A stretch of 64,000 bases of DNA from Longimicrobium sp. (GTDB lineage: Bacteria > Gemmatimonadota > Gemmatimonadetes > Longimicrobiales > Longimicrobiaceae). Below, one piece after another: positions 22,376 to 63,186 of the stretch. The first letter of the stretch is position 1. Each line of letters begins with the position of its first letter. The DNA lies in contig NZ_DATIND010000083.1 of NCBI RefSeq assembly GCF_035474595.1, forward strand, positions 62,001 through 126,000, written 5' to 3'. The position numbers were made by a program, and so were the translations under genes. Below the pieces are notes generated by a model, which was not told the origin of the DNA, made no database searches, and saw only the letters and a list, made by a program, of their open reading frames with translations.

Positions 22376-22830
<455 letters not shown>

Positions 22831-22834
<4 letters not shown>

Positions 22835-25991: not shown

Positions 25992-26070
25992 CGGCGCCTT
26001 CCACCCCGACGCCGCGGCCGCTCTCACGCCGGCCCGCGGTGTCCGGCCGACCGCGATCCGGATCTCCCGC

Positions 26071-26766: not shown

Positions 26767-26771
26767 ACCGA

Positions 26772-26828
26772 AGTGCGGAAGTGCGGGGAGTGCGGGAGTG
26801 CGGGGAGTGCGGGAGTGCGGGAGTGCGC
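26772..26828. repeat. 8-bp tandem repeat array, second site
   Basis: Seven imperfect copies of GTGCGGGA (some expanded to GTGCGGGGA) follow the zinc-ribbon gene and end in GTGCGCTG. The array at 1.3 kb ends in the same GTGCGCTG flank. Confidence 0.8.
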
Positions 26829-26989
26829 TGGCTCTGGAGCGGCCGGCGCACTTTTGCGTTTTCGGGAGATGCGGGGGCGGCGGCGCATCCAGGCCTCCGG
26901 ACGCGGTAGCCAATCCGGTGGCGGCGGGATATCCTCTCGCGAGGGGGGATGACGGGCTGGCGGGGATGGAGACCAGGGGGAGGTGGACG

Positions 26990-27781
26990 ATGGAGCTGGG
27001 GCTGCGGGGGAAGGTCGCGCTGGTGACGGGCGCGTCGGCGGGGCTGGGGCTGGCGATTGCGCGCGAGCTGGCCGCGGAGGGCGCGCGCGTGGCGATGGTC
27101 GCGCGCCGCGAGGACGTGCTGCGCGCCGCCGCGGACGAGATCGCCTCCGCCACCGGCGCCGACGTGCTCCCCATTGCCGGCGAGGTGGGGCGCGAGGGAG
27201 AGGCCGAGCGCTTCGTCCGCGAGGCGGAGGCGGCTCTGGGGCCGATGGACATCCTCGTCGCCAACGCGGGCGGGCCGCCGTCGACCACCTTCGCGACCAC
27301 GACCGACGAGCAGTACCGCGCCGCCATCGATCTTAACCTGCTCGGCTCCATCCGGCTCGCGCAGGCCGCCGTGCCGGGGATGCGCGCGCGGCGCTGGGGA
27401 CGCGTCATCTTCCTGACCTCGATGTCCGCCAAGCAGCCGCTGCCGGGGCTGATCCTGTCGAACACCGCGCGGGCCGGGATGCTCGGGTTCGCCAAGACGC
27501 TGGCGACCGAGGTGGCGGGCGACGGGGTACTGGTGAACAGCGTGCTCCCGGGCCACTTCGACACCGCGCGCGCCGCCGAGCTGGCCCGCATGCGCGCCGA
27601 GCGCGACGGCCGCAGCGTGGACGACCTGCTGCGCACCCGCGCCGCCGGCATCCCCGTGGGCCGCAGCGGTGACCCGCGCGAGATGGCAGCGGTAGTCGCC
27701 TTCCTCGCCTCCGACCGCGCGAGCTTCGTCACCGGCACGGCCATCCAGGTCGACGGCGGCCAGCTCTCCGGCCTGTTCTGA
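26990..27781 (+). CDS. Atypical short-chain dehydrogenase/reductase
   Basis: 263 aa from the ATG at 26990, preceded by GGGGGAGGTGG. The NAD(P)-binding Rossmann start is [16 protein letters not shown], and VANAGG follows. The usual YxxxK active site is replaced: after [12 protein letters not shown] the sequence reads [13 protein letters not shown], so the Tyr position is not Tyr and the Lys position is Arg. This variant is known from an SDR subgroup with SNxxR. The C-terminus ([12 protein letters not shown]) is normal. It may reduce a different substrate by another mechanism or bind without catalysis. Confidence 0.85.
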
Positions 27782-27886
27782 TCCGATCGGCGGAGAGAAC
27801 CGGTCGGTTGATAGATCCTCCTGCGCCGATGACATCCCGAGGTGAGGCGACACCGGTGCGGGACCGGCGCGTGGATGCCGCCCAGC

Positions 27887-27931
27887 AGTCCCGCAGGGAC
27901 TTTGTGCTTTTGTTGCCGCGAAATCATTCGC
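27887..27931 (+). repeat. Two-hairpin dispersed element, copy E
   Basis: Hairpin 1 AGTCCC-GCA-GGGACT, linker TTGTGCTTTTGTTGCC, hairpin 2 GCGAA-ATCA-TTCGC. It ends 30 bases before the RidA start codon. Confidence 0.88.
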
Positions 27932-27961
27932 CTTTTTCCAGCACTTCGAGCGGAGGATGGG

Positions 27962-28339
27962 ATGCCCAGAGAAACCTTCAGCAGCGACAAGCTTCCGCCG
28001 ACCGCCGGGCCGTTCTCGCCGGCGGTGCGTGGCGCGGGCGACTCCATCTACCTGAGCGGGCAGGTGGGGACGGATGCGGCCGGGAAGCTGGTCGGCGGCG
28101 GCGTGGAAGCGCAGACCAGGCAGGCGCTGGAGAACCTGCGGGCGGTGCTCGAGGCCGCAGGGCGCACCTTGGACGACGTCGTCCGCGTCGGCGTGTACCT
28201 CACCGACATGGGCAACTTCGCCGCGATGAACGAGGTGTACGCGCGGTTCTTCGCCCAGCCGTATCCCGCTCGCACCACCATCGGGGTGGCGGCGCTGCCG
28301 CTGGGCGCCGCGGTGGAGATCGACCTGGTGGCGAAGTGA
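27962..28339 (+). CDS. RidA/YjgF-family enamine/imine deaminase
   Basis: 125 aa from the ATG at 27962 with GGAGG five bases upstream. Typical RidA features are [40 protein letters not shown], and the Arg of [13 protein letters not shown] that binds carboxylates. RidA hydrolyses reactive enamine/imine intermediates. Members of this family also sit in ureide and pyrimidine breakdown operons, and the following allantoinase gene points to a role in clearing purine-degradation by-products. Confidence 0.92.
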
Positions 28340-28365
28340 ATCCATCCCCATCCGCGGACAGGCCC

Positions 28366-28905
28366 ATGGCGCACCGCTTCGTCATCGCCGACGTGTTCAC
28401 CGACCGCGCGTTCGGCGGCAACCAGCTGGCCGTCTTCCCCGACGGCCGCGGCATTTCCGACCGCGCCATGCAGTCGCTGGCGCGCGAGTTCAACTTCTCC
28501 GAGACCACCTTCGTCCTCCCGCCGCGCCAGCCGGGGCACGCATACCAGCTCCGCATCTTCACCCCCGCCACCGAGCTTTCCTTCGCCGGGCACCCCACGG
28601 TCGGCACCGCGGCGGTGCTGGCGCGGCTGGGCGTGGTCGAGCTGCGGGGCGGCGCCGCGTCGATCGTCTGCGAACTGGGCGTCGGCCCCGTCGCCGTCGA
28701 CGGGCATGGTGAAAATGCGAGTGAACTCGCGGCTACAACGGCACGCAGTCCGCCTTCGCGGACATCAGATCCGCGCGCACCTCGCCTCTCGTCTTCTTCC
28801 TCCACTCCGCTGGACCGGTCGAGGTTCGTCGTGCCCGCCAACACGACGCTGATCGCGACTGCCCGTCTCCGCGCTGGTGACGGTCGTCGCGACGGGGCGG
28901 GGTGA
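28366..28905 (+). pseudogene. PhzF-family epimerase/isomerase gene, truncated
   Basis: The first ~108 residues are a good PhzF N-terminal domain ([48 protein letters not shown]). At 28717-28763 the frame runs into a copy of the two-hairpin repeat. After that the 179-aa frame is Ser/Arg-rich and has no PhzF character. The second half of the enzyme, about 170 residues in intact relatives, is missing. The gene is therefore probably inactivated, either by arrival of the repeat or by a deletion next to it. Confidence 0.75.
28717..28763 (-). repeat. Two-hairpin dispersed element, copy F, inside the phzF-like frame
   Basis: On the minus strand: hairpin 1 GTCCGC-GAAG-GCGGAC, linker TGCGTGCCGTTGTAGCC, hairpin 2 GCGAG-TTCA-CTCGC. 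This is the only copy found within what was once coding sequence. Confidence 0.88.
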
Positions 28906-29022
28906 GCGACTCCGCGCTTGCGGCGGACCGCTTCGTCCGGCAGTTTCGCGGGGCGGACGCCCGGGTCCCGGGCACCTGCTTCGCCGCGCAGACGCCGATC
29001 GCCCTCTCCACCCGTTGACTCG

Positions 29023-30393
29023 TTGAGCGACGCTCCCACCCAGCTCGTCTTCCGCTCCGCGCACGTGGTGACGCCCGAGGGCGCCCGCGCGGCCGCCGTG
29101 TGGGTGAAGGACGGCCGCATCGCCGCCGTGCGCGAGTTCGGCGACGTGCCGGCGGGGGTGGAGACCGTGGAGTGCGGCGACGAGGTGCTGATGCCGGGGC
29201 TGGTGGACACGCACGTCCACGTGAACGAGCCCGGCCGCACCGAGTGGGAGGGATGGGATACGGCCACCCGCGCCGCCGCGGCCGGCGGGGTCACCACGCT
29301 GGTGGAGATGCCGCTGAACAGCATCCCTGCCGTGACCGATGCGTCGGCACTCGCGGCCAAGATCGCGGCCGCGGACGGCCACGTGCACGTGGACACCGGC
29401 TTCTGGGGCGGCGTGGTTCCCGGCAACGCGGGCGAGCTGCGGGGGATGTGGAACGCGGGCGTGCTCGGCTTCAAGTGCTTCCTCTCCCCCAGCGGCGTGG
29501 ACGAGTTCACGCACGTGGGCGAGGCCGACCTCCGCGCCGCGCTCCCCATCCTGCGCGAGCTCGGCGCGCCGCTGCTGGTGCACGCGGAGTCGCCGCACGT
29601 GCTGGACGAAGCCGCGGCGGGGGTGGGGGATGCGGATCCGTCGCGCTATGCCACCTACCTCGCGTCGCGGCCGCCCGAGGCGGAGATCGAGGCGGTGGAG
29701 ATGATGGTGCGGCTGGCGCGCGAGACCGGCGCGCGCATCCACATCGTGCACGTCTCCGCGGCCGAGGCGCTGCAGCCCATCCACGCCGCGCGCGAGGAGG
29801 GGCTGGCCGTCAGCTGCGAGACCTGCCCGCACTACCTCCACTTCGCCGCCGAGGACGTGCCCGACGGCGCCACGGAGATGAAGTGCGCGCCGCCCATCCG
29901 CGGCGCGGGGAACCGCGAGGACCTGTGGACGGCGCTCGGCGCGGGGTGGATCGACCTGGTCGCCACCGACCACTCGCCCTGCCCGCCGGAGATGAAGCTG
30001 CGCGAGCAGGGCGACTTCGTGCGCGCCTGGGGCGGCATCGCGTCGCTGCAGCTGGGGCTGGCCGCCGTCTGGCGCGGCGCGCGGGAACGCGGCTACACTC
30101 CCGGACACATCGCGCACTGGATGTCGGCGGGGCCGGCGCGGCTGGCGGGGCTGCACGCGCGCAAGGGCGCCATCGCCCCCGGCCACGACGCCGACCTGGT
30201 GGTGCTGGACCCCGACGCCGAGTTCCTGGTGGAGCCCGGCCGGCTCTTCCATCGCCACAAGCTCTCGCCGTACGTGGGCTCCGTGCTCCCCGGCGTGGTG
30301 GAGCAGACGTGGCTGCGCGGCGTGCGCATCCACGACCGCGGCGAGCTCGCCGGCCCGCCGTCCGGCCGCCTTCTCCTTCGCCATCGGGTGTGA
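29023..30393 (+). CDS. allB: Allantoinase
   Basis: 456 aa if translated from the TTG at 29023 (LSDAPTQLVFRSAHVVTP); no ATG lies nearby and a GTG at 29068 is an alternative. It hydrolyses allantoin to allantoate. The dinuclear metal site of cyclic amidohydrolases is clear: DTHVHVNEPGRTEWEG, the carboxylatable Lys in GFKCFLS, LLVHAES, IHIVHVSAAEA and ATDHSPCPPEMK. Length is normal. It precedes allantoicase and the urate genes, forming a purine-degradation group. The 240 bases before it hold the remains of the phzF frame and no recognisable gene. Confidence 0.93.
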   Translation: MSDAPTQLVFRSAHVVTPEGARAAAVWVKDGRIAAVREFGDVPAGVETVECGDEVLMPGLVDTHVHVNEPGRTEWEGWDTATRAAAAGGVTTLVEMPLNSIPAVTDASALAAKIAAADGHVHVDTGFWGGVVPGNAGELRGMWNAGVLGFKCFLSPSGVDEFTHVGEADLRAALPILRELGAPLLVHAESPHVLDEAAAGVGDADPSRYATYLASRPPEAEIEAVEMMVRLARETGARIHIVHVSAAEALQPIHAAREEGLAVSCETCPHYLHFAAEDVPDGATEMKCAPPIRGAGNREDLWTALGAGWIDLVATDHSPCPPEMKLREQGDFVRAWGGIASLQLGLAAVWRGARERGYTPGHIAHWMSAGPARLAGLHARKGAIAPGHDADLVVLDPDAEFLVEPGRLFHRHKLSPYVGSVLPGVVEQTWLRGVRIHDRGELAGPPSGRLLLRHRV

Positions 30394-30433
30394 GATGCAC
30401 GGGCAGCCGCTCGTCGCCGCGATGCCGGAGAGC

Positions 30434-30481
30434 AGTCCGCGAAGGCGGACTTCGGGCCGTTGTTGCCGCGAATTCATTCGC
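30434..30481 (+). repeat. Two-hairpin dispersed element, copy G
   Basis: Hairpin 1 AGTCCGC-GAAG-GCGGACT, linker TCGGGCCGTTGTTGCC, hairpin 2 GCGAA-TTCA-TTCGC. It sits in the spacer between allantoinase and the EthD-like gene. Confidence 0.9.
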
Positions 30482-30544
30482 CTTCGGGGCCAGGGAGATG
30501 CGAAGAGCAGCCGGGCGGCGATCATCCTTGGGTGAGAGAGAGCA

Positions 30545-30859
30545 ATGGCAAAGATGGTCGTGATCTACCGGACGCCGAAGGACCCCCAGGCGTTCGATGC
30601 GCACTACTTCGACGTGCACGTGCCGCTCGCGAAGCGGCTCCCCGGGCTGCGGAAGTACGAGGTGAGCCGGCGGCCGATCCTCACGCCCGCCGGCGACCCC
30701 GAGCCGTACCTGGTCGGGACCCTCTACTTCGACGACCTGGAGGCCATCCGCCGCGCCTTCGCGACGCCCGAGGGGCAGGCCTGCGCCACGGACCGGCGCG
30801 TGCTGGCGCCCGAAGACGGCGACGTGCAGATGTACCTGTTCGACACCGCCGAGGTGTAG
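30545..30859 (+). CDS. EthD-like small dimeric alpha+beta barrel protein
   Basis: 104 aa starting MAKMVVIYRTPKDPQAFDAHY. The FDVHVPLAKRLPGLRKYEV segment and the closing strand VQMYLFDTAEV match EthD-type ferredoxin-like barrels. These are small proteins or enzymes acting on hydrophobic or aromatic substrates, often of unknown reaction. It lies between allantoinase and allantoicase; a link to ureide metabolism is possible but not supported by any motif. Confidence 0.75.
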   Translation: MAKMVVIYRTPKDPQAFDAHYFDVHVPLAKRLPGLRKYEVSRRPILTPAGDPEPYLVGTLYFDDLEAIRRAFATPEGQACATDRRVLAPEDGDVQMYLFDTAEV

Positions 30860-30949
30860 CGGCAGCCACCGCGCCCGGGTGCCGATCAGCAATTTCGTGA
30901 AGGCGATGGACGCCTCATCCGTATCCCTGTCTCCCGCTGTTTGCCGTAG

Positions 30950-31957
30950 ATGACCGACTTTACCGAGATGGTGGACCTGGCGTCCGAGCGGCTGGGCGCC
31001 GCGGTGGTGGCCGCCAACGACGAGTTCTTCGCGCCCAAGGAGGCCATGCTGAAGCAGGCCGAGCCCGAGTGGCGCGAGGACGCGTACACCGAGCGCGGCA
31101 AGTGGATGGACGGCTGGGAAACGCGCCGCCGCCGCGACGACGACGGCCACGACTGGGCCATCGTCCGCCTGGGCGTTCCCGGCGTGGTGCGCGGCGTGGT
31201 GGTGGACACGCGCTGGTTCCGCGGCAACTACCCCGAGCACTGCTCGGTCGACGGGTGCGCCCTCCCCGGCATCCCCTCGCCTGAGGAGCTGGAGGCGGCG
31301 GAGTGGGTGGAGCTGCTGCCGAAGTCGGAGCTCGAGGGGAACGCGCCCAACCTCTTCGAGCTCGTCCGCTCCCCCCGCGTGACGCACCTGCGGCTGAACA
31401 TCTTCCCCGACGGCGGGGTGGCCCGCTTCCGCGCGCACGGCGTGGCGCAGCCGCAGCTCACCGCGTTCGTCCTGCGCGGCGGCGAGATCGACCTGGCGGC
31501 GATGGAGAACGGGGGATGGGTGGAGGAGGTCAGCGACCGCTTCTACGGACATCCGCAGAACCTGATCCTCCCCGGCCGCTCGCTGTTCATGGGCGACGGA
31601 TGGGAGACGCAGCGCCGCCGCGGCCCGGGCCACGACTGGAGCATCGTGCGCCTGGCCGCGCCGGGCACCATCCACCGCGTGGAGATCGACACCGACCACT
31701 TCAAGGGCAACGTCCCCGACCGCTGCATGCTCGAGGGGATCCACGCATCCGGCGTCCGCGAGGCGGGCAACCTCGCCGAGGCCACGGGATGGCGCCCGAT
31801 CCTCCCCGAAACGAAGCTGCAGCCGCACGCGCGGCACCGCTGGGAGGCGGAGGTGGCGGACGCGGGGCCCGTGACGCACGTGCGCCTCAGCATCTTCCCC
31901 GACGGCGGGGTCGCGCGGCTGCGGGTGTTCGGCACGCTGGAGCGGCCGTCGTCGTGA
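30950..31957 (+). CDS. alc: Allantoicase
   Basis: 335 aa made of two similar halves of about 160 residues, as in all allantoicases. Both halves carry the same signatures: GWETRRRRDDDGHDW and later GWETQRRRGPGHDW, then THLRLNIFPDGGVARFR and THVRLSIFPDGGVARLR. The enzyme cleaves allantoate to ureidoglycolate and urea. Its stop overlaps the GTG start of the next gene (GTGA at 31954-31957), so the two are translationally coupled. No ureidoglycolate lyase or urease is seen in the window. Confidence 0.95.
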   Translation: MTDFTEMVDLASERLGAAVVAANDEFFAPKEAMLKQAEPEWREDAYTERGKWMDGWETRRRRDDDGHDWAIVRLGVPGVVRGVVVDTRWFRGNYPEHCSVDGCALPGIPSPEELEAAEWVELLPKSELEGNAPNLFELVRSPRVTHLRLNIFPDGGVARFRAHGVAQPQLTAFVLRGGEIDLAAMENGGWVEEVSDRFYGHPQNLILPGRSLFMGDGWETQRRRGPGHDWSIVRLAAPGTIHRVEIDTDHFKGNVPDRCMLEGIHASGVREAGNLAEATGWRPILPETKLQPHARHRWEAEVADAGPVTHVRLSIFPDGGVARLRVFGTLERPSS

Positions 31958-32460
31958 CGCTCGCCGAGCTGAACGCGCTGCCGGAGGACGAGGCCGCCGC
32001 CGCGCTCCTCGGCTGCTGCGGCTCGCCGCGGTGGGCGCGGGAGATGGCGATGCGGCGCCCGTTCGCGGACTTGGGCGCGGTGCTCGGCGCGGCGGACGAG
32101 GCGTGGTGGGCGCTGGAGGCGGCGGACTGGGACGATGCCTTCGCCGCGCACCCCCGCATCGGCGAGCGCAAGGCGGCGCCGGCGCAGGGCGCGCAGGCCG
32201 CCGCGTGGTCCGCGCAGGAGCAGTCCGCCGCCGCCGCCGCGGGAGACGACGTCGCCACCGCGCTGGCGGAGGGAAACCGCGCGTACGAGCAGCGCTTCGG
32301 CCGCATCTACATCGTCTGCGCCACGGGGAAGACGGCCGGGGAGATGCTCGCCATCCTCCGCTCCCGCCTCGGCAACGATGCGGACGCGGAACTGCGCGTC
32401 GCCGCCGGCGAGCAGGCGAAGATCACGCGGCTGCGGCTGGAGAAGCTGCTGGCGGGGTGA
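31954..32460 (+). CDS. uraD: 2-oxo-4-hydroxy-4-carboxy-5-ureidoimidazoline (OHCU) decarboxylase
   Basis: 168 aa from the GTG at 31954. The family motif AHPRIGERK holds the catalytic His. A conserved C-terminal block (GNRAYEQRFGRIYIVCATGK followed by LRSRLGND) supports the call. It converts OHCU to S-allantoin, giving stereospecific product after HIU hydrolase. The 4-bp overlap with allantoicase and the two downstream genes place it in one urate-to-ureidoglycolate unit. Confidence 0.93.
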   Translation: MTLAELNALPEDEAAAALLGCCGSPRWAREMAMRRPFADLGAVLGAADEAWWALEAADWDDAFAAHPRIGERKAAPAQGAQAAAWSAQEQSAAAAAGDDVATALAEGNRAYEQRFGRIYIVCATGKTAGEMLAILRSRLGNDADAELRVAAGEQAKITRLRLEKLLAG

Positions 32461-32549
32461 GCTGGAGCGGTGACGGTGCGCGGCAGGTGTGGAGATTGGC
32501 TGCGGTGTGCGAGCCGGCATCGCGCCCTCTACGGCCGGCCGAGACCGTC

Positions 32550-32577
32550 CACCTCTCCCGTACCGGGAGAGGTAGCC
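32550..32577. repeat. Short palindrome CCTCTCCCGTACCGGGAGAGG
   Basis: A near-perfect palindrome (CCTCTCCCG/CGGGAGAGG around TAC) that recurs in similar form near 35.14, 35.25, 40.02 and 57.27 kb. It lies between the uraD-like and HIU hydrolase genes. Confidence 0.6.
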
Positions 32578-32628
32578 ATCCACCATCCCCGCGGAGATCC
32601 TGCCTCAGCGCACCCGGGCCGGGGAGCG

Positions 32629-32676
32629 AGTCCGCGAAGGCGGACTTCGGGCCGTTGTTGCCGCGAATTCATTCGC
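32629..32676 (+). repeat. Two-hairpin dispersed element, copy H
   Basis: Hairpin 1 AGTCCGC-GAAG-GCGGACT, linker TCGGGCCGTTGTTGCC, hairpin 2 GCGAA-TTCA-TTCGC. It matches copy G over the whole element and ends 46 bases before the HIU hydrolase start. Confidence 0.9.
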
Positions 32677-32722
32677 CTTCCCGGGGCAGGCGAGCGCCTG
32701 ATACCATCTACCGAACAACCAC

Positions 32723-33067
32723 ATGAGCGCGATCACGACGCACGTGCTGGACACCATGCGCGGGCTGCCGGCGATGGGGATCGCCGTGCTGCTGGAGCGC
32801 GCGGACGCCGAGGGGCAGATGCAGACCGTCGCGAGCGGCGTCACCAACAGCGACGGGCGCATCCTCGACCTCCTCCCCGTGGACCAGGCGCTGGAGCCGG
32901 GGACGTACCGCCTGAGCTTCGACACGGGCGCGTACTTCACCGCCACGGCGGTGGAAGGCTTCTACCCCGAAGTCTCCATCGTCTTCTCGGCGCGCGAGGG
33001 CGAGGCGCACTACCACGTGCCGCTGCTGCTCAGTCCGTACGGCTACTCCACCTACCGCGGGAGCTGA
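32723..33067 (+). CDS. uraH: 5-hydroxyisourate hydrolase (transthyretin-like)
   Basis: 114 aa. It starts with TTHVLDTMRGLPA, the His-containing N-terminal motif, and ends in the family hallmark tetrapeptide YRGS. The middle block (YHVPLLLSPYGYSTYRGS) also fits. It hydrolyses 5-hydroxyisourate, the product of urate oxidase, to OHCU. It is separated from urate oxidase by only three bases, so both are almost certainly cotranscribed. There is no N-terminal signal peptide. Confidence 0.96.
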   Translation: MSAITTHVLDTMRGLPAMGIAVLLERADAEGQMQTVASGVTNSDGRILDLLPVDQALEPGTYRLSFDTGAYFTATAVEGFYPEVSIVFSAREGEAHYHVPLLLSPYGYSTYRGS

Positions 33068-33070
33068 CCG

Positions 33071-33919
33071 ATGCCCGCCGCGCTGGGCCCCAGCAACTAC
33101 GGCAAGTCCCGCGTCCGCCTGTTCCGCGTCACCCGCGACGGCGAACGCCACGACGTGGCGGACCTCACCGTCGACGTGGCGTTCGAGGGGAAGTACCGCG
33201 ACGTGCACCTGCAGGGCGACAACGCCGCCGTGCTGCCGACCGACACCATGCGCAACACCGTCTACGCGCTGGCGAAGCAGCACCCGGTGACGCCGGTGGA
33301 GGGCTTCGGCCGCGCGCTGGCGGAGCACTTCCTGGGCGCGACGGAGGAGTGCGACCGCGTGCGCATCCGCATCGCCACGCACGGGTGGGAGCGCATCGCC
33401 GTGGGCGGGCGGCCGCATCGGCACAGCTTCGTGCGCGGCAGCGGCGAGCGGCGGATGGCCTACGTCTTCGCCGACCGCGATTCCGTGCGGTTCGAGGCGG
33501 GGATCGAGGACCTGGAGGTGCTGAAGACCACGCAGTCGGCCTTCGAGGGATACATCAAGGACCGCTACACCACGCTCCCGGAGACCAGGGACCGCATCTT
33601 CGCGACGATCGTCTCCGCGCGCTGGAAGTACGCGAGCGCGCCGGCCGATTTCGACGCCGCCTTCGCCGCCGTCCGCACGGCGATGCTGGAGACCTTCGCC
33701 GAGCACGAGTCGAAGTCCGTGCAGCAGACGCTGTACGCGATGGGCGCCGCCGCGCTGGACGCGGCGCCGGAGATCCCCGAGATCCGTCTCTCCCTCCCCA
33801 ACCGCCACCACCTGCTGTTCGACATCGGCCGGTTCGGGCTGGAGAACCGGAACGAGGTGTTCGTCCCCACGCCGGAGCCGTTCGGCCTGATCGAGGCCAC
33901 GGTGGTGCGGACGGAATAG
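33071..33919 (+). CDS. Urate oxidase (uricase)
   Basis: 282 aa. The cofactor-free oxidase has two T-fold domains. Visible signatures include NYGKSRVRLFRV with the active-site Lys, VLPTDTMRNTVYALAKQ with the catalytic Thr, HSFVRG, and the C-terminal NRHHLLFDIGRFGLENRNEVF. It oxidises urate with O2 to 5-hydroxyisourate and H2O2. The start is three bases after the HIU hydrolase stop. With xanthine dehydrogenase, HIUase, OHCU decarboxylase, allantoinase and allantoicase it completes an oxidative purine route. Confidence 0.95.
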   Translation: MPAALGPSNYGKSRVRLFRVTRDGERHDVADLTVDVAFEGKYRDVHLQGDNAAVLPTDTMRNTVYALAKQHPVTPVEGFGRALAEHFLGATEECDRVRIRIATHGWERIAVGGRPHRHSFVRGSGERRMAYVFADRDSVRFEAGIEDLEVLKTTQSAFEGYIKDRYTTLPETRDRIFATIVSARWKYASAPADFDAAFAAVRTAMLETFAEHESKSVQQTLYAMGAAALDAAPEIPEIRLSLPNRHHLLFDIGRFGLENRNEVFVPTPEPFGLIEATVVRTE

Positions 33920-42867: not shown

Positions 42868-43275
42868 TCACGGGACTACATCGAAATGCCCGCGCGGGGT
42901 GCGATACGCATGGAAATGCCGGTCCAGCGTGAAGACGCGCCGGATGTCCAGCGTCTCCGCGGCGGCCACGAGGGAGGCATCCGCGAAATCCATCGGAGAG
43001 TCCGCGTACTGCCGCATCAACGCGCGGACCCGGTCCAGCTCGCCGGGGTCCGGGGGATGCAGCCGGACGATGCCGTCCGCATAGAGATTCCACAACTCCT
43101 CCTGCGCGGCCAGCCCACCGGCATGGAAGAGGAAATACATGGCCTCGGTGAAACAGGGCCACGTCGTCACGAAGGTCGTGGAACCGATCCGATCGAGAAC
43201 CGCGACCGACCGCATGTGCCAGCTGTCGTTGCGGTCGATCAGGGCGACGAGCGGCCCGGTATCGCACAGGGTCAC
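42868..43275 (-). CDS. VapC-type PIN-domain ribonuclease toxin
   Basis: 135 aa from a GTG at 43275. PIN-domain acidic residues are visible in LCDTGPLVALID, WPCFTEAMYFL and SPMDFADASLVAAAE. The C-terminus VFTLDRHFHAYR is also typical. Such toxins cleave tRNA, rRNA or mRNA when free of antitoxin. Its start overlaps the antitoxin stop by four bases, giving the usual antitoxin-toxin order. Confidence 0.87.
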   Translation of the reverse strand: MTLCDTGPLVALIDRNDSWHMRSVAVLDRIGSTTFVTTWPCFTEAMYFLFHAGGLAAQEELWNLYADGIVRLHPPDPGELDRVRALMRQYADSPMDFADASLVAAAETLDIRRVFTLDRHFHAYRTPRGHFDVVP

Positions 43276-43541
43276 AGGCGTCCCTCGCGCTTCTTGGCGA
43301 CGAGATAGTCGGTGAACGCGTTGCCCGAAGGTCGCGACAGCGCTTCGATCCCGCCGCTCGCGATCCGGCCGACGCGCCCCGCCAGACGCTGGCTGATGGG
43401 CACCTGCGACTCGGCCGGCGTATCGCTTTCCTGCTGGGGAAGCTGCGCGGCGATCCATCCCGCGGGCGTGGTGCCGGCGGCGGCCGCGGCTTCTTCGACC
43501 TGCTGGTAGATGTCGTCCGGGAGTTCGACCATTCTGCTCAT
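43272..43541 (-). CDS. Antitoxin partner of the PIN-domain toxin
   Basis: 89 aa beginning MSRMVELPDDIYQQVEEAA, a ribbon-helix-helix-like N-terminus, followed by TPAGWIAAQLPQ. The C-terminal half (FTDYLVAKKREGRL) would wrap the toxin. GGAGGTGATTCG precedes the start on the minus strand. The stop codon overlaps the toxin GTG (43272-43275). Confidence 0.8.
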   Translation of the reverse strand: MSRMVELPDDIYQQVEEAAAAAGTTPAGWIAAQLPQQESDTPAESQVPISQRLAGRVGRIASGGIEALSRPSGNAFTDYLVAKKREGRL

Positions 43542-45158: not shown

Positions 45159-45770
45159 ATGGCGCCTCCAGTCCAGGTCGTCGCCTTCACCGACCGCGCG
45201 TCCACGCGGGTGACCTATCGTCCCGGAACCACCGACCTGGCCGGCGGCGTGGGCGGGATCTGCATCTCGATGGTGCTGATGTGGCTGCGCAAGTCGTTGG
45301 AAACCGGCGGGCAGGTCACCGCCCAGCACCTCCGCGACGGCCTGCATGTGGCCACGCTGCGCGAGGGTGCGTACCTGCGGAACGCGCGGGCCGACCGCCG
45401 CGCGCGGGCCGCGGGGCTGCCGCTGTTCGGCGCGATCCGAGACCTGTTCGCCTCGTACGGCCTGGTGATGCACGAGCGCCACAAGGAAGACAACGCGCTC
45501 CACTCGTTCTTCTATCCCGTCATGGAGATGTCGCTGGCTCCCGGTCATTACGCCTTCTGGATGACACGCCCGGGGTATTCGGGGCACGCCATGGGGCTGG
45601 TGCTCGACGAGGATGGCCCGTGCTTCTGGTTCGAGCCCAACGGCGGCGTGTACCGATGGAACGACCTGAACGAGCTGCTCGACTGGCTCCCGGACAAGCT
45701 GGATACCTTCAGCTTCAGCGCGGGCTACAGGGGAGGAGCCTACCACTTCGCGCGCGTCACCCTCGGCTGA
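45159..45770 (+). CDS. Putative papain-like cysteine peptidase (YopT/C58-like)
   Basis: 203 aa from the ATG at 45159 (GGAGA upstream). I do not recognise a named family with certainty. The order GGICISMVLMWL (Cys35), SGHAMGLVL (His143), then FWFEPNGGVYRW (acidic/Asn pair 159-161) is that expected for a YopT-type cysteine peptidase: Cys in a helix after GGxC, His before a strand, and a (D/E)PNxG turn. There is no signal peptide or lipobox. It might process a peptide or protein in the nearby RiPP-like locus, but it is separated from it by a terminator. Confidence 0.55.
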   Translation: MAPPVQVVAFTDRASTRVTYRPGTTDLAGGVGGICISMVLMWLRKSLETGGQVTAQHLRDGLHVATLREGAYLRNARADRRARAAGLPLFGAIRDLFASYGLVMHERHKEDNALHSFFYPVMEMSLAPGHYAFWMTRPGYSGHAMGLVLDEDGPCFWFEPNGGVYRWNDLNELLDWLPDKLDTFSFSAGYRGGAYHFARVTLG

Positions 45771-46088: not shown

Positions 46089-46370
46089 ATGGAGAAGACG
46101 CGCCTCAGCCTGGACGAGCTGGAAGTCCAGTCGTTCGCCACGACCAGCGAAGTCGGCCGGCAGCGCGGCACGGTGCGCGGCCACGACGCCCCCACCGACC
46201 AGGTGGAGTGCCCCACCGCCGACGTGAACTGGAACACCTGCTGGGAGAGCTGCGCGGACACCAACTGCTGCGGCGGGGGCGGCGGGCCGTCGGGCGACTG
46301 CACGGTGGACTGCTGGTCGGACTGGTGCTCGTGGGATTGCTACTGGACCTGGTACATCAGCTGGTGCTGA
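46089..46370 (+). CDS. RiPP-like precursor peptide 1 (pinensin-type leader, 10 Cys)
   Basis: 93 aa from the ATG at 46089, which best matches the sister peptides. The leader is MEKTRLSLDELEVQSFATT, continuing through RGTVRGHDAPTD. The core begins near VECPTADVNWNTCW and contains ten Cys and about eight Trp, ending in CYWTWYISWC. A GGGGG hinge splits the core. LxLDxLxVxSF leaders mark pinensin-family lanthipeptide precursors in Bacteroidota and Longimicrobium-like genomes. No lanthionine synthetase adjoins, and Ser/Thr are few compared with Cys. Confidence 0.8.
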   Translation: MEKTRLSLDELEVQSFATTSEVGRQRGTVRGHDAPTDQVECPTADVNWNTCWESCADTNCCGGGGGPSGDCTVDCWSDWCSWDCYWTWYISWC

Positions 46371-46472
46371 GCGGCCCCGCGGCCGGCGGGTGCACGCCCG
46401 CCGGCCGCCCTCATGCGCGGGGGAGCCGCCTCCGCGCCGACGTGACCCCACCCCCGCCCGGAGTACCCCGCG

Positions 46473-46769
46473 ATGCAGAAGACCCGCCTCAGGCTGGACG
46501 ACCTGGAGATCCAGTCGTTCGCGACCACCGGCGACACCGCGCAGCAGCGCGGCACCGTCCGCGGCCACGACGCGCCGACGGACCCGGTGGAATGCCCCAC
46601 CGCGGACCCGAACTGGAACACCTGCTGGGAAACCTGTGCCGACACCTGCGGCAACACCTGCGGCTGCGGCGGCGGGGGCGGAGATTCGACCGGCTGCGGC
46701 GGCTTCTCGGACTGGGCGTGCACGGGCAACTGCTCCACGACCTGGTACGTCAGCCTCTGCTGGTACTGA
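46473..46769 (+). CDS. RiPP-like precursor peptide 2 (10 Cys)
   Basis: 98 aa. The leader MQKTRLRLDDLEIQSFATT and the GTVRGHDAPTD and VECPTADPNWNTCW blocks are nearly identical to peptide 1, while the core diverges. It reads CADTCGNTCGCGGGGG, then DWACTGNCSTTWYV, ending LCWY. Ten Cys are again present. The conserved leader and variable core are the pattern of a precursor family processed by shared enzymes. It starts about 100 bases after peptide 1. Confidence 0.8.
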   Translation: MQKTRLRLDDLEIQSFATTGDTAQQRGTVRGHDAPTDPVECPTADPNWNTCWETCADTCGNTCGCGGGGGDSTGCGGFSDWACTGNCSTTWYVSLCWY

Positions 46770-46795
46770 ATCCGTTCGGCGGCCCCGCGGACCCG

Positions 46796-46866
46796 GAGGG
46801 ATGCGGCGGGTCGAACCGGGAATGCACAGGCAGCTGCTCCACCACGGGGTACGTCACCCCTCTGCG
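46796..46866 (+). pseudogene. Degenerate copy of the 3' end of precursor 2
   Basis: The bases translate as GCGGSNRECTGSCSTTGYVT in one frame, closely matching GCGGFSDWACTGNCSTTWYV near the end of precursor 2. There is no leader or start codon. It looks like a decayed partial duplication of a core segment. Confidence 0.6.
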
Positions 46867-46970
46867 GGTGAGCGTGCGCCACCCGGCGGAGTTGGCCCCG
46901 CCGGGTGGCGCCGCGGGGGGAGCGTCCCCACGGCACCATCATCCCCATCCCCACTCCGGAGAGCCGTCGG

Positions 46971-47264
46971 ATGGAGAAGAAGCGCCTGACGCTGGACGAG
47001 CTGGAAGTGCAGTCGTTCTCCACCACCCGCGCCGCTGCCGGGCAGCGCGGCACCGTGCGCGGCCACGACGCCCCCACCGACCAGGTGGAGTGCCCCACGG
47101 CCGACGTGAACTGGAACACCTGCTGGGGAAGCTGCGGCTGCGGAAGCGGCGGCAACACCGACGACTGCACGGTGATCTGCGAGAGCGACGCCTGCAGCGC
47201 GATGGACTGCTCGTTCGGCTGCCCCTGGGAAACCCGGGGAAGCTGGTACGCCACCTACTGCTGA
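46971..47264 (+). CDS. RiPP-like precursor peptide 3 (10 Cys)
   Basis: 97 aa from the ATG at 46971. The leader is MEKKRLTLDELEVQSFSTT and the GTVRGHDAPTDQVECPTAD block is shared. The core is CGCGSGGNTDDC, then ICESDACSAMDCSFGC, ending GSWYATYC. Ten Cys again, though positions after the fourth differ. A longer in-frame start at 46905 lacks similarity to the sisters and is rejected. The TOPRIM gene follows after about 75 bases. Confidence 0.8.
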   Translation: MEKKRLTLDELEVQSFSTTRAAAGQRGTVRGHDAPTDQVECPTADVNWNTCWGSCGCGSGGNTDDCTVICESDACSAMDCSFGCPWETRGSWYATYC

Positions 47265-47338
47265 GGGCCCGCGGATCTTCCGCGGCCGGCGGAGCCCGCT
47301 CCGCCGGCCGCGCCACCGGCTCTCCACCCTCGATCGCC

Positions 47339-49111
47339 TTGCCCCTCTACGACGCCCTTCCCGCGCCCACCGAGGCCGAGCTGCTGGCCGCCTCCGGCTA
47401 TCCGCACCTGCCGGTGCGGGTGCGCCACCGCGCGCCGCTCGCCTGGCATCCGCTGCGCGATGGCGAGGAGACCGCGCGCTACGCCTACATCGCCGCGGAC
47501 GGCGAGCCGCGCTTCGAGTGCATCCGCTTCCACCTGAGGCCCGGGCACGAGGCGGCGCCGGACAAGGCCTTTCTCTGGCGGGCGATCGACCGGAACGGCG
47601 GAGGGAGATGGGGATTGGACGACGTGGATCTCGTACCGTACCGCCTTCCGCGCATCCTCGCGGCCGCCGCGGCGGGCGAGCGCGTCTTCGTGGTCGAGGG
47701 GGAGAAGGACGTGCACGCGCTGGAGATGCTGGGGCTGATCGCCACCTGCAATCCGCTCGGGGCGATGCAGTGGACGAATCGCCACGCCGAGGCGCTGCGG
47801 GGCGCGGAGGCAATCGTCATCCCCGACCACGACCGCGCGGGGATGGTGCACGCCGGGCGGGTGATGACGACGCTGCGGGGCCGCGCCCGCTCCGCCGCGC
47901 TCCTCCTTCTCCCCGGCCTGGAGCGCGGCGAGGACGTGAGCGACTGGATCGCGCGCGGCGGAAGTGCGGCGGAGCTGAACCGCCTCGCCGGCGCCGCACC
48001 GCGCGATCCATCGCCGGCCGGGCTGGCGGCGCTGCTGAACCTGCCGATGGATGTCGATCCGCTCGCCACGTCGCCCGAGGACGTGCGGGCACTGCTGGTC
48101 GGGGCCGCGCCGGATGGCGGTATCCCCGCTCCGCACCCCGGCTTCCGCCGCTCCGCCGCCGCGTTCGCGCGGCTGGGCGCCGCAATCCGCCCGCCCGCGC
48201 CGCTGCGGGACTCGGGGCTCCCCGACGCGCATCCCACCTGGCGCGCGGTCGCCGCTGCCGTGCGGGATGCGGATGGGGACGCCGCCGCGATGCTGGACGA
48301 CGCGTCGCTGCTGGACCGCGCGTCGTACGAGCTGGGCCTGCTCTCCGGCCTGCTGCGCGCGGCGATGGCCGGGGAGCCGCCGTCCGAGCCCATCGACGCG
48401 ACGGCCACGGACACGGCGTTCGTCACCGCGCCCGCGGTGCGGCTGGTACGCACGCGGTGGGACTGGGACGCGTTCATCGGCGATCCCGATCTCCCCGAGC
48501 CGCCTGAGCCCGGCCCCGCCTGGGTGTTCCATCTCCCTCCCTCCGGCGCGGTGCAGATGCGGCGGCTGCACCCGCTTCCCGCGATGGTGCTGGAGCTCTG
48601 CGCCCGGCCGCACACCCGCGCGCAGGCCGCCGCGGCGGTCGCGGAGCGCGTGGAGGGCGATCCCGCGCGCATCGCGGCGCTGGTGCACGCGCAGATCGGC
48701 GAGCTGCACGCCTCCGGTTTCCTGCGCCCGGCCGTGGCCGAGCGCGCGGAAGGGACGATCGGGGAGATGAAGCGTCTCCTGCTCGCGGACGAGGCACCGC
48801 AGTCGGGCGCGCGCAGCCTCGTGGGGATGCTCGCGCGCGCGGTCGGCGGCACGCGCGAGGCTGCGGACGACGCGACGGAGGCGGGGGGAGATTCGTATCC
48901 CGTTCACCTCCTCGACGTCTCCGTGAACATGCTGGAGCAGCTGCTGGCGAGCGCCCGGCTGCGCGGCGCGTTCGCCGCCGAACTGGACGGCTACTGGGCC
49001 GGCGGCGACGTCCATGCGCGCGTCCGCTCGCTCGCGCCGCTGCTGGACGCGCTGGCCCGCGCGCTGGGGAATCGCGAGCAGGCGCTCGCCCCGTACGTGA
49101 TCGCCGAATGA
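47339..49111 (+). CDS. Primase-like TOPRIM protein with PqqD-like C-terminal region
   Basis: 590 aa if started at the TTG at 47339; the open frame extends further left through the precursor region, so the start is inferred. Residues ~40-215 match plasmid/phage primase-type TOPRIM proteins: RYAYIAADGEPRFECIRFHL, PYRLPRILAA, VFVVEGEKDVHAL (Glu120), ATCNPLGAMQW and IPDHDRAGM (Asp163, Asp165). Residues ~395-470 (VQMRRLHPLPAMVLELCAR onward, ending ASGFLRPA) look like a PqqD-type winged helix, the RiPP recognition fold. No helicase motifs are visible. Its stop overlaps the next gene (ATGA). Confidence 0.65.
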   Translation: MPLYDALPAPTEAELLAASGYPHLPVRVRHRAPLAWHPLRDGEETARYAYIAADGEPRFECIRFHLRPGHEAAPDKAFLWRAIDRNGGGRWGLDDVDLVPYRLPRILAAAAAGERVFVVEGEKDVHALEMLGLIATCNPLGAMQWTNRHAEALRGAEAIVIPDHDRAGMVHAGRVMTTLRGRARSAALLLLPGLERGEDVSDWIARGGSAAELNRLAGAAPRDPSPAGLAALLNLPMDVDPLATSPEDVRALLVGAAPDGGIPAPHPGFRRSAAAFARLGAAIRPPAPLRDSGLPDAHPTWRAVAAAVRDADGDAAAMLDDASLLDRASYELGLLSGLLRAAMAGEPPSEPIDATATDTAFVTAPAVRLVRTRWDWDAFIGDPDLPEPPEPGPAWVFHLPPSGAVQMRRLHPLPAMVLELCARPHTRAQAAAAVAERVEGDPARIAALVHAQIGELHASGFLRPAVAERAEGTIGEMKRLLLADEAPQSGARSLVGMLARAVGGTREAADDATEAGGDSYPVHLLDVSVNMLEQLLASARLRGAFAAELDGYWAGGDVHARVRSLAPLLDALARALGNREQALAPYVIAE

Positions 49112-49830
49112 GCACCGTCGACGCGCCGCCCGTGGAGATCCGCCTCCCCCCCATCCCCCGCGACGCGCACACCGCCGCTGCCGAGGCCATGCTGCGCCGC
49201 CTGGCCGCCGCCTTCCCGGACGCGGGGCTGGGCATCACCGGCTCGCTGGCCACGGGCACTCACGGGCCCGGGAGCGACATCGATCTGGTGATGACGGATG
49301 CCTCGTTCCGGCGCGAGGTGCAGTTCGCCAGCGCGTCGGAAGGCATTCCCGTCGCCGTCGTCTGCCTGCGCCCGCGCTTCGATGCGGACCGCGAGCGGCG
49401 CTGGATGCTCCAGTCCGGCGGCGACGTGCGCATCGTCTCCATGGTCCGCTCCGCCTTCGTCGCGCGCGATCCGGGGGGCTCGCTGGCGGAGATGCAGCGC
49501 ACGGTGGAGCGGCTGGACGCCGAGCGCCGGACGCGGCGCGACGAGCTGGTGGCCGTGCGCCGCGAGGATGCGGCGTCACTCGTCCGCGCCCTCCGCGGCG
49601 GCACCCCCGCCAGCGACGAGCACGTGCAGCTGCAGCTCTTCGACGCCGTGGTGGATGGCTGGTACCTGAAGCACGGCCTGGCGATGGACACGCGCCGGGA
49701 AAGCGAGCGGATGCTCGAGACGATCGCCGCGCGCGACGCCGCGCTGTTCGAGCTTCTGCGCCGCGCCGTCCCGCTCACCCACACGTCCATGGCGCCGCTC
49801 CTCCGCGCCGTGGACCTGGTTTTCGGGTAG
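49108..49830 (+). CDS. Nucleotidyltransferase-fold protein
   Basis: 240 aa. The motif GLGITGSLATGTHGPGSDID, continuing LVM, is the GSx(8-10)DxD signature of the polymerase-beta nucleotidyltransferase fold; both Asp are intact. The rest is helical (EMQRTVERLDAERRTRRDEL) and includes LFDAVVDGWYLKHG, perhaps an HEPN-like helical partner region. Such enzymes transfer NMP to antibiotics, proteins or RNA ends. It overlaps the TOPRIM-PqqD gene by four bases, so the two act together or are at least co-made. Confidence 0.75.
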   Translation: MSTVDAPPVEIRLPPIPRDAHTAAAEAMLRRLAAAFPDAGLGITGSLATGTHGPGSDIDLVMTDASFRREVQFASASEGIPVAVVCLRPRFDADRERRWMLQSGGDVRIVSMVRSAFVARDPGGSLAEMQRTVERLDAERRTRRDELVAVRREDAASLVRALRGGTPASDEHVQLQLFDAVVDGWYLKHGLAMDTRRESERMLETIAARDAALFELLRRAVPLTHTSMAPLLRAVDLVFG

Positions 49831-53143: not shown

Positions 53144-53602
53144 TCAGATTTCTTCCGAATCCATAGGCCACGGTTGCGCGAACCGCACCGGGATGCGCTC
53201 GGAAAGGCGCTTGAAATCGTGGAGATTGTCCGTCAGCAGCGTCACGCCGGCTTCCGCGCACGAGGCGGCAATCAGCGCATCATTTACGAGCGAGCGAGAG
53301 ATCTTCCCAAGCTCCATGCGGTGCTTGACCGCCAAGGCGCTCAGCGCCTGCGCAGACCGATCCCATGCTGAGTGCGTCGGCGTGATGATGCGGTTTTTCT
53401 TCTCCGCCGGATCGACGATCGTGTCGTGAATATCACGTATTCTCTCAGGGGAGTTCGCGCCGATGAGCAACTCGTGGACTACAACGGAGCACAGGTGCAT
53501 GCGAGGCGAATGACGGGCATAGAAATCCCTAAGACGGACCCCGAACTCCGCCTCCCGAATTGAACGGATGTAGAGATTGGTGTCGAACGCGAACTTTACC
53601 AA
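53144..53602 (-). CDS. PIN-domain toxin of a second toxin-antitoxin pair
   Basis: 152 aa. Acidic PIN residues are seen in FAFDTNLYIRSI, VVHELLIGA, LVNDALIAAS and LLTDNLHDFKRL. This is the VapC/FitB type ribonuclease layout. The gene and its antitoxin are noticeably less GC-rich than the surroundings, consistent with recent transfer. The start overlaps the antitoxin 3' end by seven bases. Confidence 0.88.
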   Translation of the reverse strand: MVKFAFDTNLYIRSIREAEFGVRLRDFYARHSPRMHLCSVVVHELLIGANSPERIRDIHDTIVDPAEKKNRIITPTHSAWDRSAQALSALAVKHRMELGKISRSLVNDALIAASCAEAGVTLLTDNLHDFKRLSERIPVRFAQPWPMDSEEI

Positions 53603-53856
53603 TCGGGATGATCGTCGAAGTAGTTCTCGACGCCTCCCGTGCCGATGATCCGCTCGATTCCCTCTACTAATTCGTCACGGTAGAGCACGATGTCGAGGGC
53701 CTTGTCGATGGCCTCGGTTTCGGACTTCGAGCCAAGAATCTTGACGACCCGGTCAAGCTTTTCCTGGTCGATGTTCAGGTTCTTGCGTCGAACCGGGGGC
53801 CGCCGGGCGCCACCTTTCGCGAGCGCGCTGCGTTTGTGTGTGCTGGCCATAGGCAT
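53596..53856 (-). CDS. Antitoxin of the second PIN-domain pair
   Basis: 86 aa. A basic N-terminus (STHKRSALAKGGARRPPVRRK) is followed by a ribbon-helix-helix-like part (NLNIDQEKLDRVVKILGSKS, then ETEAIDKALDIVL). It would bind its promoter and neutralise the toxin. AAGGAGATGCCT precedes the ATG on the minus strand. Confidence 0.8.
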   Translation of the reverse strand: MPMASTHKRSALAKGGARRPPVRRKNLNIDQEKLDRVVKILGSKSETEAIDKALDIVLYRDELVEGIERIIGTGGVENYFDDHPDW

Positions 53857-59509: not shown

Positions 59510-59707
59510 CTAGCCGACGACGCAGGGCTTGCAGGGGTTCCCCGTGTTGCACGAGTACTGCGGGTAGCAGGTGTCGGCGGTGCAGTTGCAGGTCCGAAGC
59601 GTGAGCAGGAACTCGTTCGCGACCACCGTTCCCTTCGCCGTGACCTCCGGCTCCACCTCGAAACGATCGACGCGCAGCGCGCTAAGGTCCAGGTCAAGCT
59701 TCTTCAT
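59510..59707 (-). CDS. RiPP-like precursor peptide 4 (pinensin-type leader, 6 Cys)
   Basis: 65 aa from the ATG at 59707 with CAGGAGATG just upstream on the minus strand. The leader MKKLDLDLSALRVDRFEVEP continues into TAKGTVVANE, matching the LxLxxLxVxxF...GTV pattern of the 46-kb peptides. The core is TLRTCNCTADTCYPQYSC, then NPCKPCVVG, with six Cys. No modification gene adjoins; an orphan precursor served by enzymes elsewhere is likely. Confidence 0.75.
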   Translation of the reverse strand: MKKLDLDLSALRVDRFEVEPEVTAKGTVVANEFLLTLRTCNCTADTCYPQYSCNTGNPCKPCVVG

Positions 59708-59942: not shown

Positions 59943-60572
59943 ATGAACGACGATCTGATCGAGCAGCAGAAGGACTACTACCGCGCCCGGGCCGGCGAGT
60001 ACGACGAGTGGTTCCTGCGCGAGGGGCGATACGACCGTGGCCCCGGGCACCGCGCGCGCTGGCTGGCCGAGGTGGACGAGCTCCGCGCGGCGCTGGAGCG
60101 CTTCCGCCCCGCCGGGCGGGTGCTGGAGCTGGCGTGCGGCACCGGCTGGTGGACCGAGCAGCTCGTCCGCTTCGCCGACCGGGTGACGGCGGTGGACGCG
60201 TCCGACGAGGTGCTGGAGCTGAACCGCCGGCGCGTGGGCGACGCGAAGGTGCGCCGCGAGCGTGCCGACATCTTCGCGTGGCGGCCGGACGCGGCGTACG
60301 ACGCGGTGTTCTTCAGCTTCTGGCTCTCGCACGTGCCGCCGGAGCGCTTCGAAAGCTTCTGGGCAATGGTGCGGGGTGCGCTGGCGCCGGGCGGGCGCGT
60401 GTTCTTCATCGACTCGCTGCGCACCGAGCTCTCCACCGCCACCGACCACCAGCTGAGCGGCGAGGACGACGTGGTGCTGGAGCGCAAGCTGAACGACGGC
60501 CGCCGCTTCCACATCTATAAGGTCTTCTACGACCCCGCCGATCTGCAGGCGAAGCTCGAGGCCACCCGATAA
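59943..60572 (+). CDS. Class I SAM methyltransferase, copy 1 (3'-truncated)
   Basis: 209 aa. The SAM-binding motif is RVLELACGTGWWTEQLV, with AVDASDEVLELN as motif II and FIDSLRTELS later. Over ~200 residues it is virtually identical to the second copy at 62494. In this copy the sequence stops matching at about 60564, so the last ~20 residues (GWRAGVRATESFFLYGEA in copy 2) are replaced by a new stop. The lost strand belongs to the Rossmann-like sheet, so activity is doubtful. The cassette-bearing DNA begins at this breakpoint. Confidence 0.8.
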   Translation: MNDDLIEQQKDYYRARAGEYDEWFLREGRYDRGPGHRARWLAEVDELRAALERFRPAGRVLELACGTGWWTEQLVRFADRVTAVDASDEVLELNRRRVGDAKVRRERADIFAWRPDAAYDAVFFSFWLSHVPPERFESFWAMVRGALAPGGRVFFIDSLRTELSTATDHQLSGEDDVVLERKLNDGRRFHIYKVFYDPADLQAKLEATR

Positions 60573-62493: not shown

Positions 62494-63186
62494 ATGGACC
62501 TGATCGAGCAGCAGAAGGACTACTACCGCGCCCGCGCCGGCGAGTACGACGAGTGGTTCCTGCGCGAGGGGCGATACGACCGCGGCCCCGGGCACCGCGC
62601 GCGCTGGCTGGCCGAGGTGGACGAGCTCCGCGCCGCGCTGGAGCGCTTCCGCCCCGCCGGCCGCGTGCTGGAGTTGGCGTGCGGCACCGGCTGGTGGACC
62701 GAGCAGCTCGTCCGCTTCGCCGACCGGGTCACGGCGGTGGACGCGTCGGACGAGGTGCTGGAGCTGAACCGCCGGCGCGTGGGCGACGCGAAGGTGCGCC
62801 GCGAGCGTGCCGACATCTTCGCCTGGCGGCCGGACGCGGCGTACGACGCGGTGTTCTTCAGCTTCTGGCTCTCGCACGTGCCGCCGGAGCGCTTCGAAAG
62901 CTTCTGGGCGATGGTGCGGGGTGCGCTGGCGCCGGGCGGCCGCGTGTTCTTCATCGACTCACTGCGCACCGAGCTCTCCACCGCCACCGACCACCAGCTG
63001 AGCGGCGAGGACGACGTGGTGCTGGAGCGCAAGCTGAACGACGGCCGCCGCTTCCACATCTACAAGGTCTTCTATGACCCCGCCGATCTGCAGGCGAAGC
63101 TGGAGGCCATCGGCTGGCGCGCCGGCGTCCGCGCGACGGAAAGCTTCTTCCTGTACGGCGAGGCATCCCCCGCCGGCACTTCCTGA
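62494..63186 (+). CDS. Class I SAM methyltransferase, copy 2 (complete)
   Basis: 230 aa from the ATG at 62494 with a very strong AAAGGAGGTG site. Motif I is RVLELACGTGWWTEQLV and the post-I acidic residue is in AVDASDEVL; FIDSLRTELSTATDHQLSGE follows. The C-terminus GVRATESFFLYGEASPAG, absent from copy 1, completes the fold. The substrate is unknown. The duplication also includes the upstream GGTGAGATGTTGAG, so it is a segmental copy of at least 640 bases. The isochorismatase-like gene starts 12 bases after the stop. Confidence 0.88.
   Translation: MDLIEQQKDYYRARAGEYDEWFLREGRYDRGPGHRARWLAEVDELRAALERFRPAGRVLELACGTGWWTEQLVRFADRVTAVDASDEVLELNRRRVGDAKVRRERADIFAWRPDAAYDAVFFSFWLSHVPPERFESFWAMVRGALAPGGRVFFIDSLRTELSTATDHQLSGEDDVVLERKLNDGRRFHIYKVFYDPADLQAKLEAIGWRAGVRATESFFLYGEASPAGTS

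Follow-up and report, generated by a model that had tools for sequence, protein, structure and literature searches.

Background

Several described systems share parts with the locus analysed here, which occupies positions 46089-49830 of a 64,000-nucleotide stretch of the genome of a soil-type bacterium of the Gemmatimonadota (the window) and encodes, with all five genes on the forward strand, three small precursor peptides, a TOPRIM protein and a nucleotidyltransferase. Among the prochlorosins, a single promiscuous enzyme serves many peptides (PMC10783134). MntA, an enzyme with the GSX10DXD motif, adenylylates protein tyrosine (PMC7641770), and in the cluster of the lasso peptide pseudomycoidin a nucleotidyltransferase gene decorates the peptide (PMC8498205). 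Among the proteins with a recognition element (RRE) for ribosomally synthesized and post-translationally modified peptides (RiPPs), TbiB1 and TfuB1 have PDB structures solved with the leader bound. The main text of two RRE surveys makes no mention of a fusion of TOPRIM or primase to RRE; one of them counts 1,158 Pfam domains among proteins that carry an RRE, and TOPRIM could figure in its supplement. No paper on TOPRIM with RRE or with a lanthipeptide was found in the main text of open papers. The component families of the locus are known, while the open papers searched did not yield the combination of a TOPRIM core, a LanC-type tail, an MNT-type nucleotidyltransferase and lanthipeptide precursors.

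We propose, at roughly even confidence, that the locus is a side-branch of a pinensin-type lanthipeptide system in which the TOPRIM protein and the nucleotidyltransferase move a nucleotidyl group on a leader-held peptide. The leader family of the precursors, a domain shared with LanC, the predicted fold of that domain, the intact motifs of both enzymes and the conservation of the cassette were computed here and are presented in the following sections.

Precursor peptides and LanB/LanC

An earlier note on this DNA, made from the sequence alone, had described five open reading frames, three of them precursors sharing a leader and a GTVRGHDAPTD..VECPTAD..NWNTCW block with exactly ten Cys each, followed by a 590-aa protein with the TOPRIM motifs EGEKD and DHD and a nucleotidyltransferase whose start overlaps the stop of the TOPRIM gene by 4 bp. 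This description was confirmed throughout: the frames lie at the coordinates of Table 1, the Cys were counted, and the overlapping nucleotidyltransferase is real, with 30.9 bits against the Pfam NTP_transf_2 cut-off of 21. The Cys count is 9-10 in the three cassette precursors of a second genome (G009), and only 4 of the 58 precursors collected elsewhere in the window's genome contain ten.

The window leaders are matched by NF038180 (pinensin family lanthipeptide) with E-values of 4e-5 to 7e-4. Its cut-off of 24 is passed by precursor 1 in the six-frame search (24.8 bits), missed in hmmscan (23.6), and exceeded by all the G009 cassette precursors (33.0, 26.8 and 25.9). Judged by sequence, the window precursors carry pinensin-type class I lanthipeptide leaders. 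About forty NF038180-leader matches with E-values of 0.01 or less are present in the window's genome, and none of 14 control genomes was matched at 0.05 or less. The fetched parts of the genome yielded 61 distinct Cys-rich precursors with a pinensin-type leader over dozens of contigs; another pinensin-type precursor lies inside the window itself (59510-59707, reverse strand).

The absence of LanB and LanC noted earlier holds for the locus, where neither gene stands beside the three precursors, and fails for the genome, where both are found on contigs C4 and C23. The LanB N-terminal domain is located at the ends of these two contigs, and the pieces are probably one gene split by assembly. Contig C23 further carries the LanB C-terminal domain, LanC, an ABC (ATP-binding cassette) transporter, a secretion protein, a subtilase-like gene and six precursors. 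Since at least 60 precursors are accompanied by one LanB/LanC cluster, located on other contigs, the three window precursors are probably modified in trans by the distant LanB/LanC. Products of this class would carry lanthionine rings.

The cassette leaders differ from the others at one position. Gln immediately precedes SF in all six of them, from both genomes, versus 2 of 70 other precursors (Fisher 1.3e-7, a figure that overstates the case because the six leaders are related); the 70 combine the other precursors of the window's genome with fetched relatives and are rounded up by one. Asp or Glu occupies the same position in 51 of the 58 other precursors of the window's genome. The Gln signature fits a dedicated leader reader.

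The TOPRIM protein

Residues ~36-215 match the phrog_6088 DNA primase (E 7.6e-19) and NF005477 (E 4.5e-16). The structure of Escherichia coli DnaG matches the front half at 2e-4, and the DnaG catalytic acids, which align with E120, D124, D163 and D165, are kept in the window and G009 copies. In most of the Gemmatimonadota relatives examined, this core follows a zinc ribbon (CPAH.D...CHAGC), precedes a helicase/ATPase-like half, or both; domain and homology searches of the TOPRIM protein for the zinc ribbon and the helicase found neither. These matches identify the front half as a mobile-element primase core. Scans of genome contigs and viral contigs with the whole TOPRIM protein returned no relatives.

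Residues ~262-470 show homology to an extension at the C-terminus of LanC, that of the window's genome included (phmmer, 2e-11 to 9e-14). This extension measures ~200 residues in the LanC proteins collected (L124-L136) and occurs in several phyla. A profile of the tail finds LanC in the window's genome and in another seven from the family; its matches in 395 Gemmatimonadota genomes are confined to frames of LanC length and to the two TOPRIM proteins. LanC with the same tail is also present in Acidobacteriota, Ignavibacteriota, Chloroflexota, Planctomycetota, Aminicenantes and Bacteroidota. When the tails are placed in a tree, both TOPRIM copies group in a single clade (support 100/100) with a long branch, so the tail was captured long ago and is no fresh duplicate from the LanC of this genome.

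An AlphaFold2 (AF2) model of residues 225-590 was built from a 12-row alignment. Residues 143-240 of the model comprise strands followed by three helices, with a block-mean pLDDT (predicted local distance difference test) of ~77-95. Comparison with the PDB using Foldseek gave matches to NGO1945 (E 1.4e-3), TglHI, PqqD (5sxy), TbiB1 and TfuB1 (both with leader), TigE and TruD. Probabilities were 0.96-1.00 among the small RRE entries, and target template modelling (TM) scores were 0.70-0.77; winged-helix DNA-binding proteins were not among the best matches. A PqqD-like/RRE fold is therefore predicted for the C-terminal domain, and the LanC C-terminal extension is here assigned as RRE-like, a property for which no report was found in the open literature searched. 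Docking of the precursor leaders by the tail is well supported, because the LanC-tail homology, the RRE-like fold, the recurring cassette and the shared rare Gln all point to it; for leader binding as such, the homology and the leader signature are the grounds. The interpretation given in the earlier note was correct as to a leader-docking fold and missed the pinensin-type nature of the precursors, the distant LanB/LanC cluster and the domain shared with LanC.

Weak PqqD-core matches in G005 and G006 were discarded, as they overlap other called genes. An Ignavibacteriales LanC (L126) has an extra helical end that makes up its last ~110 residues; the TOPRIM protein resembles it over a final stretch of ~110 residues, a likeness that is suggestive by eye and not significant by hidden Markov model, and that was set aside.

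A tail of this kind could also belong to an idle scaffold, in which the TOPRIM part is catalytically inert and the protein is a leader-binding chaperone, sequestering the precursors from LanB/LanC or a transporter or handing them over. Non-catalytic RRE proteins do exist as discrete PqqD or B1 proteins (PMC12710340), and the tail is that of LanC. The scaffold is nevertheless quite unlikely: the four catalytic acids are kept, the TOPRIM part is the best conserved between the window and G009 (72% versus 55-60% in the tail), and the coupled nucleotidyltransferase would be left unexplained.

The nucleotidyltransferase

The GSX10DXD motif is found as GS-LATGTHGPGS-DID at residues 45-59 and is conserved in the window and G009 copies, which are 66% identical. 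Weak matches to ANT(4') aminoglycoside transferases were not used as evidence, and viral-contig and plasmid scans with the nucleotidyltransferase returned no relatives. Pfam, other profile and PADLOC searches gave no HEPN match in this protein or in the TOPRIM protein.

These enzymes could alternatively constitute a regulatory or toxin-like module acting on RNA or DNA and switched by the RRE-bound precursor or mature peptide, which would then be a signal and not a substrate. The TOPRIM and MNT families work on nucleic acids or nucleases, the nucleotidyltransferase weakly matches PADLOC PDC-S09 (E 2e-4 to 1e-3), the TOPRIM protein likewise weakly matches PADLOC RTasDnaG-like (6e-10 in G009, 2e-5 in the window), and an R-x5-H stretch at residues 219-225, in the helical half, may recall HEPN. 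The cassette, however, lacks a HEPN or other toxin gene as well as the zinc ribbon and helicase with which mobile primases act on DNA, the docking domain is common to LanC, and the precursor cores are normal and Cys-rich, so that such a module is considered unlikely. The defence role once suggested for the locus retains only hints, from the weak PADLOC sub-domain matches.

Recurrence of the cassette

Among the 395 Gemmatimonadota genomes, the TOPRIM protein was found in one other genome, G009, which contains the full cassette in the same five-gene order. Both copies known from this survey lie beside such precursors, contrary to the refuting condition set in the earlier note, that homologues would almost never do so. 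The flanking genes are unrelated: by BLASTP, the window has nothing in common with the G009 stretch beyond the cassette except weak matches of a generic kind. The TOPRIM and nucleotidyltransferase genes are present in the same 2 of 21 relatives, apart from a weak 27-residue nucleotidyltransferase match in G008. A match to the GHDAP[ST]D pattern in G012 falls within an unrelated gene and was rejected. The gene beside the G009 nucleotidyltransferase (L044, 11507-13813, reverse strand) resembles by eye a Hen1-type RNA-repair methyltransferase, probably by coincidence.

With so many precursor arrays in the genome, chance adjacency of genes is not rare, and a mobile-element primase in decay might by accident have come to lie beside one of them, along with a nucleotidyltransferase that has nothing to do with it. 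Chance adjacency was rejected on account of the different flanks of the two copies, between which the five-gene order is kept; together with the LanC-type domain of the TOPRIM protein and the 4-bp gene overlap, this leaves an accident strongly disfavoured, with hardly any probability.

Proposed mechanism

The mechanism that we infer comprises leader binding, action in trans and nucleotidyl chemistry, and can be outlined as follows. The three precursors would be substrates of the LanB/LanC encoded elsewhere in the genome. The tail of the TOPRIM protein would grip the precursor leader, as the LanC tail presumably does, and present the held peptide to a Mg2+-dependent TOPRIM centre and to the translationally coupled MNT-type nucleotidyltransferase. 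The pair would then most likely transfer, trim or exchange a nucleotidyl group (nucleoside monophosphate, NMP) on Ser, Thr or Tyr of the peptide, either as the last tailoring step or to mask the peptide reversibly; the simplest such action would be to move an NMP group. The active-site motifs of the two enzymes are intact, and the chances that nucleotidyl chemistry takes place on the peptide are put at about even.

A number of observations weigh against this proposal. Winged-helix DNA-binding domains have a fold similar to that of RREs, and no Foldseek match of the tail has an E-value under 0.001, so that LanC-tail homology and fold must carry the case jointly. Although AF2 and Foldseek agree on the PqqD/RRE fold that had been suggested for the C-terminal region, Pfam PqqD scores 20.4 bits by sequence alone, below the curated cut-off of 23.4. 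The Toprim_2 cut-off of 22.1 is exceeded by the G009 copy (23.3 bits) and missed by the window copy (18.2). The single-sequence model of the nucleotidyltransferase is poor. An alignment of the six cassette precursors, three from each genome, reveals no core acceptor residue that is obviously conserved throughout. Finally, because the cassette occurs in two genomes only, statistics on its conservation have little to draw on, and the six leaders do not count as independent observations.

Two further chemistries were envisaged. Phosphorylation serves dehydration in class II-IV lanthipeptide enzymes, and adenylylation of Ser/Thr by the nucleotidyltransferase could play an equivalent part, with adenosine monophosphate leaving to produce dehydro residues; LanC would be needed and LanB would not. 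The cassette does combine an NMP-transfer enzyme with a leader-docked partner, and the cores contain many Ser/Thr. Yet the window's genome encodes LanB together with its elimination partner, TOPRIM is not known as a lyase, and no evidence for elimination was found in the sequence; this route is very improbable. The other chemistry is peptide-primed polymerisation, in which the nucleotidyltransferase would add the first NMP and the TOPRIM centre would extend it into a lanthipeptide-oligonucleotide conjugate. To our knowledge, this product class is without precedent among RiPPs, and we give it a very small chance.

If the proposed transfer of a nucleotidyl group on a leader-held peptide is true, a catalytic core of DNA replication was recruited to peptide natural-product chemistry by means of a leader-gripping LanC domain. 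The three precursors and two enzymes constitute a small expressible set for nucleotide-dependent peptide modification. The LanC extension, present in several phyla, is suggested as a leader-binding domain and as a handle for finding further tailoring enzymes.

Feature coordinates and neighbouring genes

The features of the locus are collected in Table 1. The hairpin that precedes the TOPRIM gene is a possible attenuator, and the hairpins may keep the enzymes expressed at a lower level than the precursors.

Table 1. Genes, domains and hairpins of the locus, in window coordinates
Feature	Position	Strand	Details
Precursor 1	46089..46370	+	93 aa, pinensin-type leader, 10 Cys; NF038180 E 3.6e-5, 23.6 bits (hmmscan), 24.8 six-frame
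Hairpin downstream of precursor 1	46379..46408	+	12-nt perfect arms, repeat search
Precursor 2	46473..46769	+	98 aa, ten Cys, leader of pinensin type; under the NF038180 cut-off (E 1.7e-4)
Hairpin separating precursors 2 and 3	46876..46911	+	14-nt perfect arms, repeat search
Precursor 3	46971..47264	+	97 aa, ten Cys, leader of pinensin type; under the NF038180 cut-off (E 7.3e-4)
Hairpin between precursor 3 and TOPRIM gene	47281..47312	+	15-nt perfect arms, repeat search
TOPRIM-RRE fusion gene (RRE predicted)	47339..49111	+	590 aa, TTG start; G009 orthologue 60% identical
Primase-type core with TOPRIM	47444..47983	+	Residues ~36-215; E120, D124, D163, D165 present
LanC-tail domain including predicted PqqD-like/RRE fold	48122..48748	+	Residues ~262-470; LanC homology, AF2 model, Foldseek
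C-terminal helical region	48749..49108	+	Residues ~471-590; predicted helical, confidence partly low; 55% conserved versus G009
MNT-type nucleotidyltransferase	49108..49830	+	240 aa, GSX10DXD, helical C-terminal domain; NTP_transf_2 E 3.7e-7

Immediately upstream, 45159-45770 (forward strand) encodes a 203-aa protein weakly resembling C58/YopT-type papain-fold peptidases (E 0.006-0.013, below cut-off), which is not part of the G009 cassette. PIN-domain toxin-antitoxin-like pairs are recognized by eye on either side of the region (42868-43541 and 53144-53856). Two methyltransferase genes ~2.5 kb apart (59943-60572 and 62494-63186) have identical N-terminal sequences and the appearance of a recent duplication. 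A purine/urate breakdown row, also identified by eye, extends over 19886-33919 and includes xanthine dehydrogenase parts, allantoinase, OHCU decarboxylase, hydroxyisourate hydrolase and urate oxidase.

Comparison with known systems

The locus shares with the mobile-element TOPRIM primase-helicases (phrog_6088, NF005477) residues ~36-215 with the EGEKD and DxD motifs; those proteins have their own upstream zinc ribbon and downstream helicase, whereas an RRE-type tail is found here instead. The RRE proteins PqqD, TbiB1, TfuB1, NGO1945/HvfC and TglI are similar in predicted fold, with strands before three helices, and in their association with precursors, but the predicted RRE is fused here to a TOPRIM core. 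The nucleotidyltransferase has the GSX10DXD adenylyltransferase motif in common with MntA; the type VII toxin-antitoxin HepT/MntA differs by an adjacent HEPN toxin gene, where the partner here is the TOPRIM-RRE protein. The pseudomycoidin cluster likewise includes a nucleotidyltransferase gene within a RiPP cluster, in that case for a lasso peptide. The nucleotidyltransferase of the window cannot be assigned by sequence to the family of either enzyme.

Pinensin-type class I lanthipeptides are comparable in their LxLDxLxVxSF...GTVxG leader, their split LanB and LanC in the genome and their Cys-rich cores. In contrast, the window locus is devoid of LanB/LanC and possesses the TOPRIM-RRE protein and the nucleotidyltransferase, and the precursors of its genome are spread across many contigs. 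Many diverse precursors and few modifying enzymes are also the hallmark of the prochlorosins (ProcM), which employ a class II LanM and Nif11 leaders instead of the class I split LanB/LanC and pinensin-type leaders found here; the window's genome adds a dedicated enzyme pair for one subset of precursors. With at least 60 precursors and one split LanB/LanC set, this genome parallels, within class I and on a large scale, what is seen with the prochlorosins.

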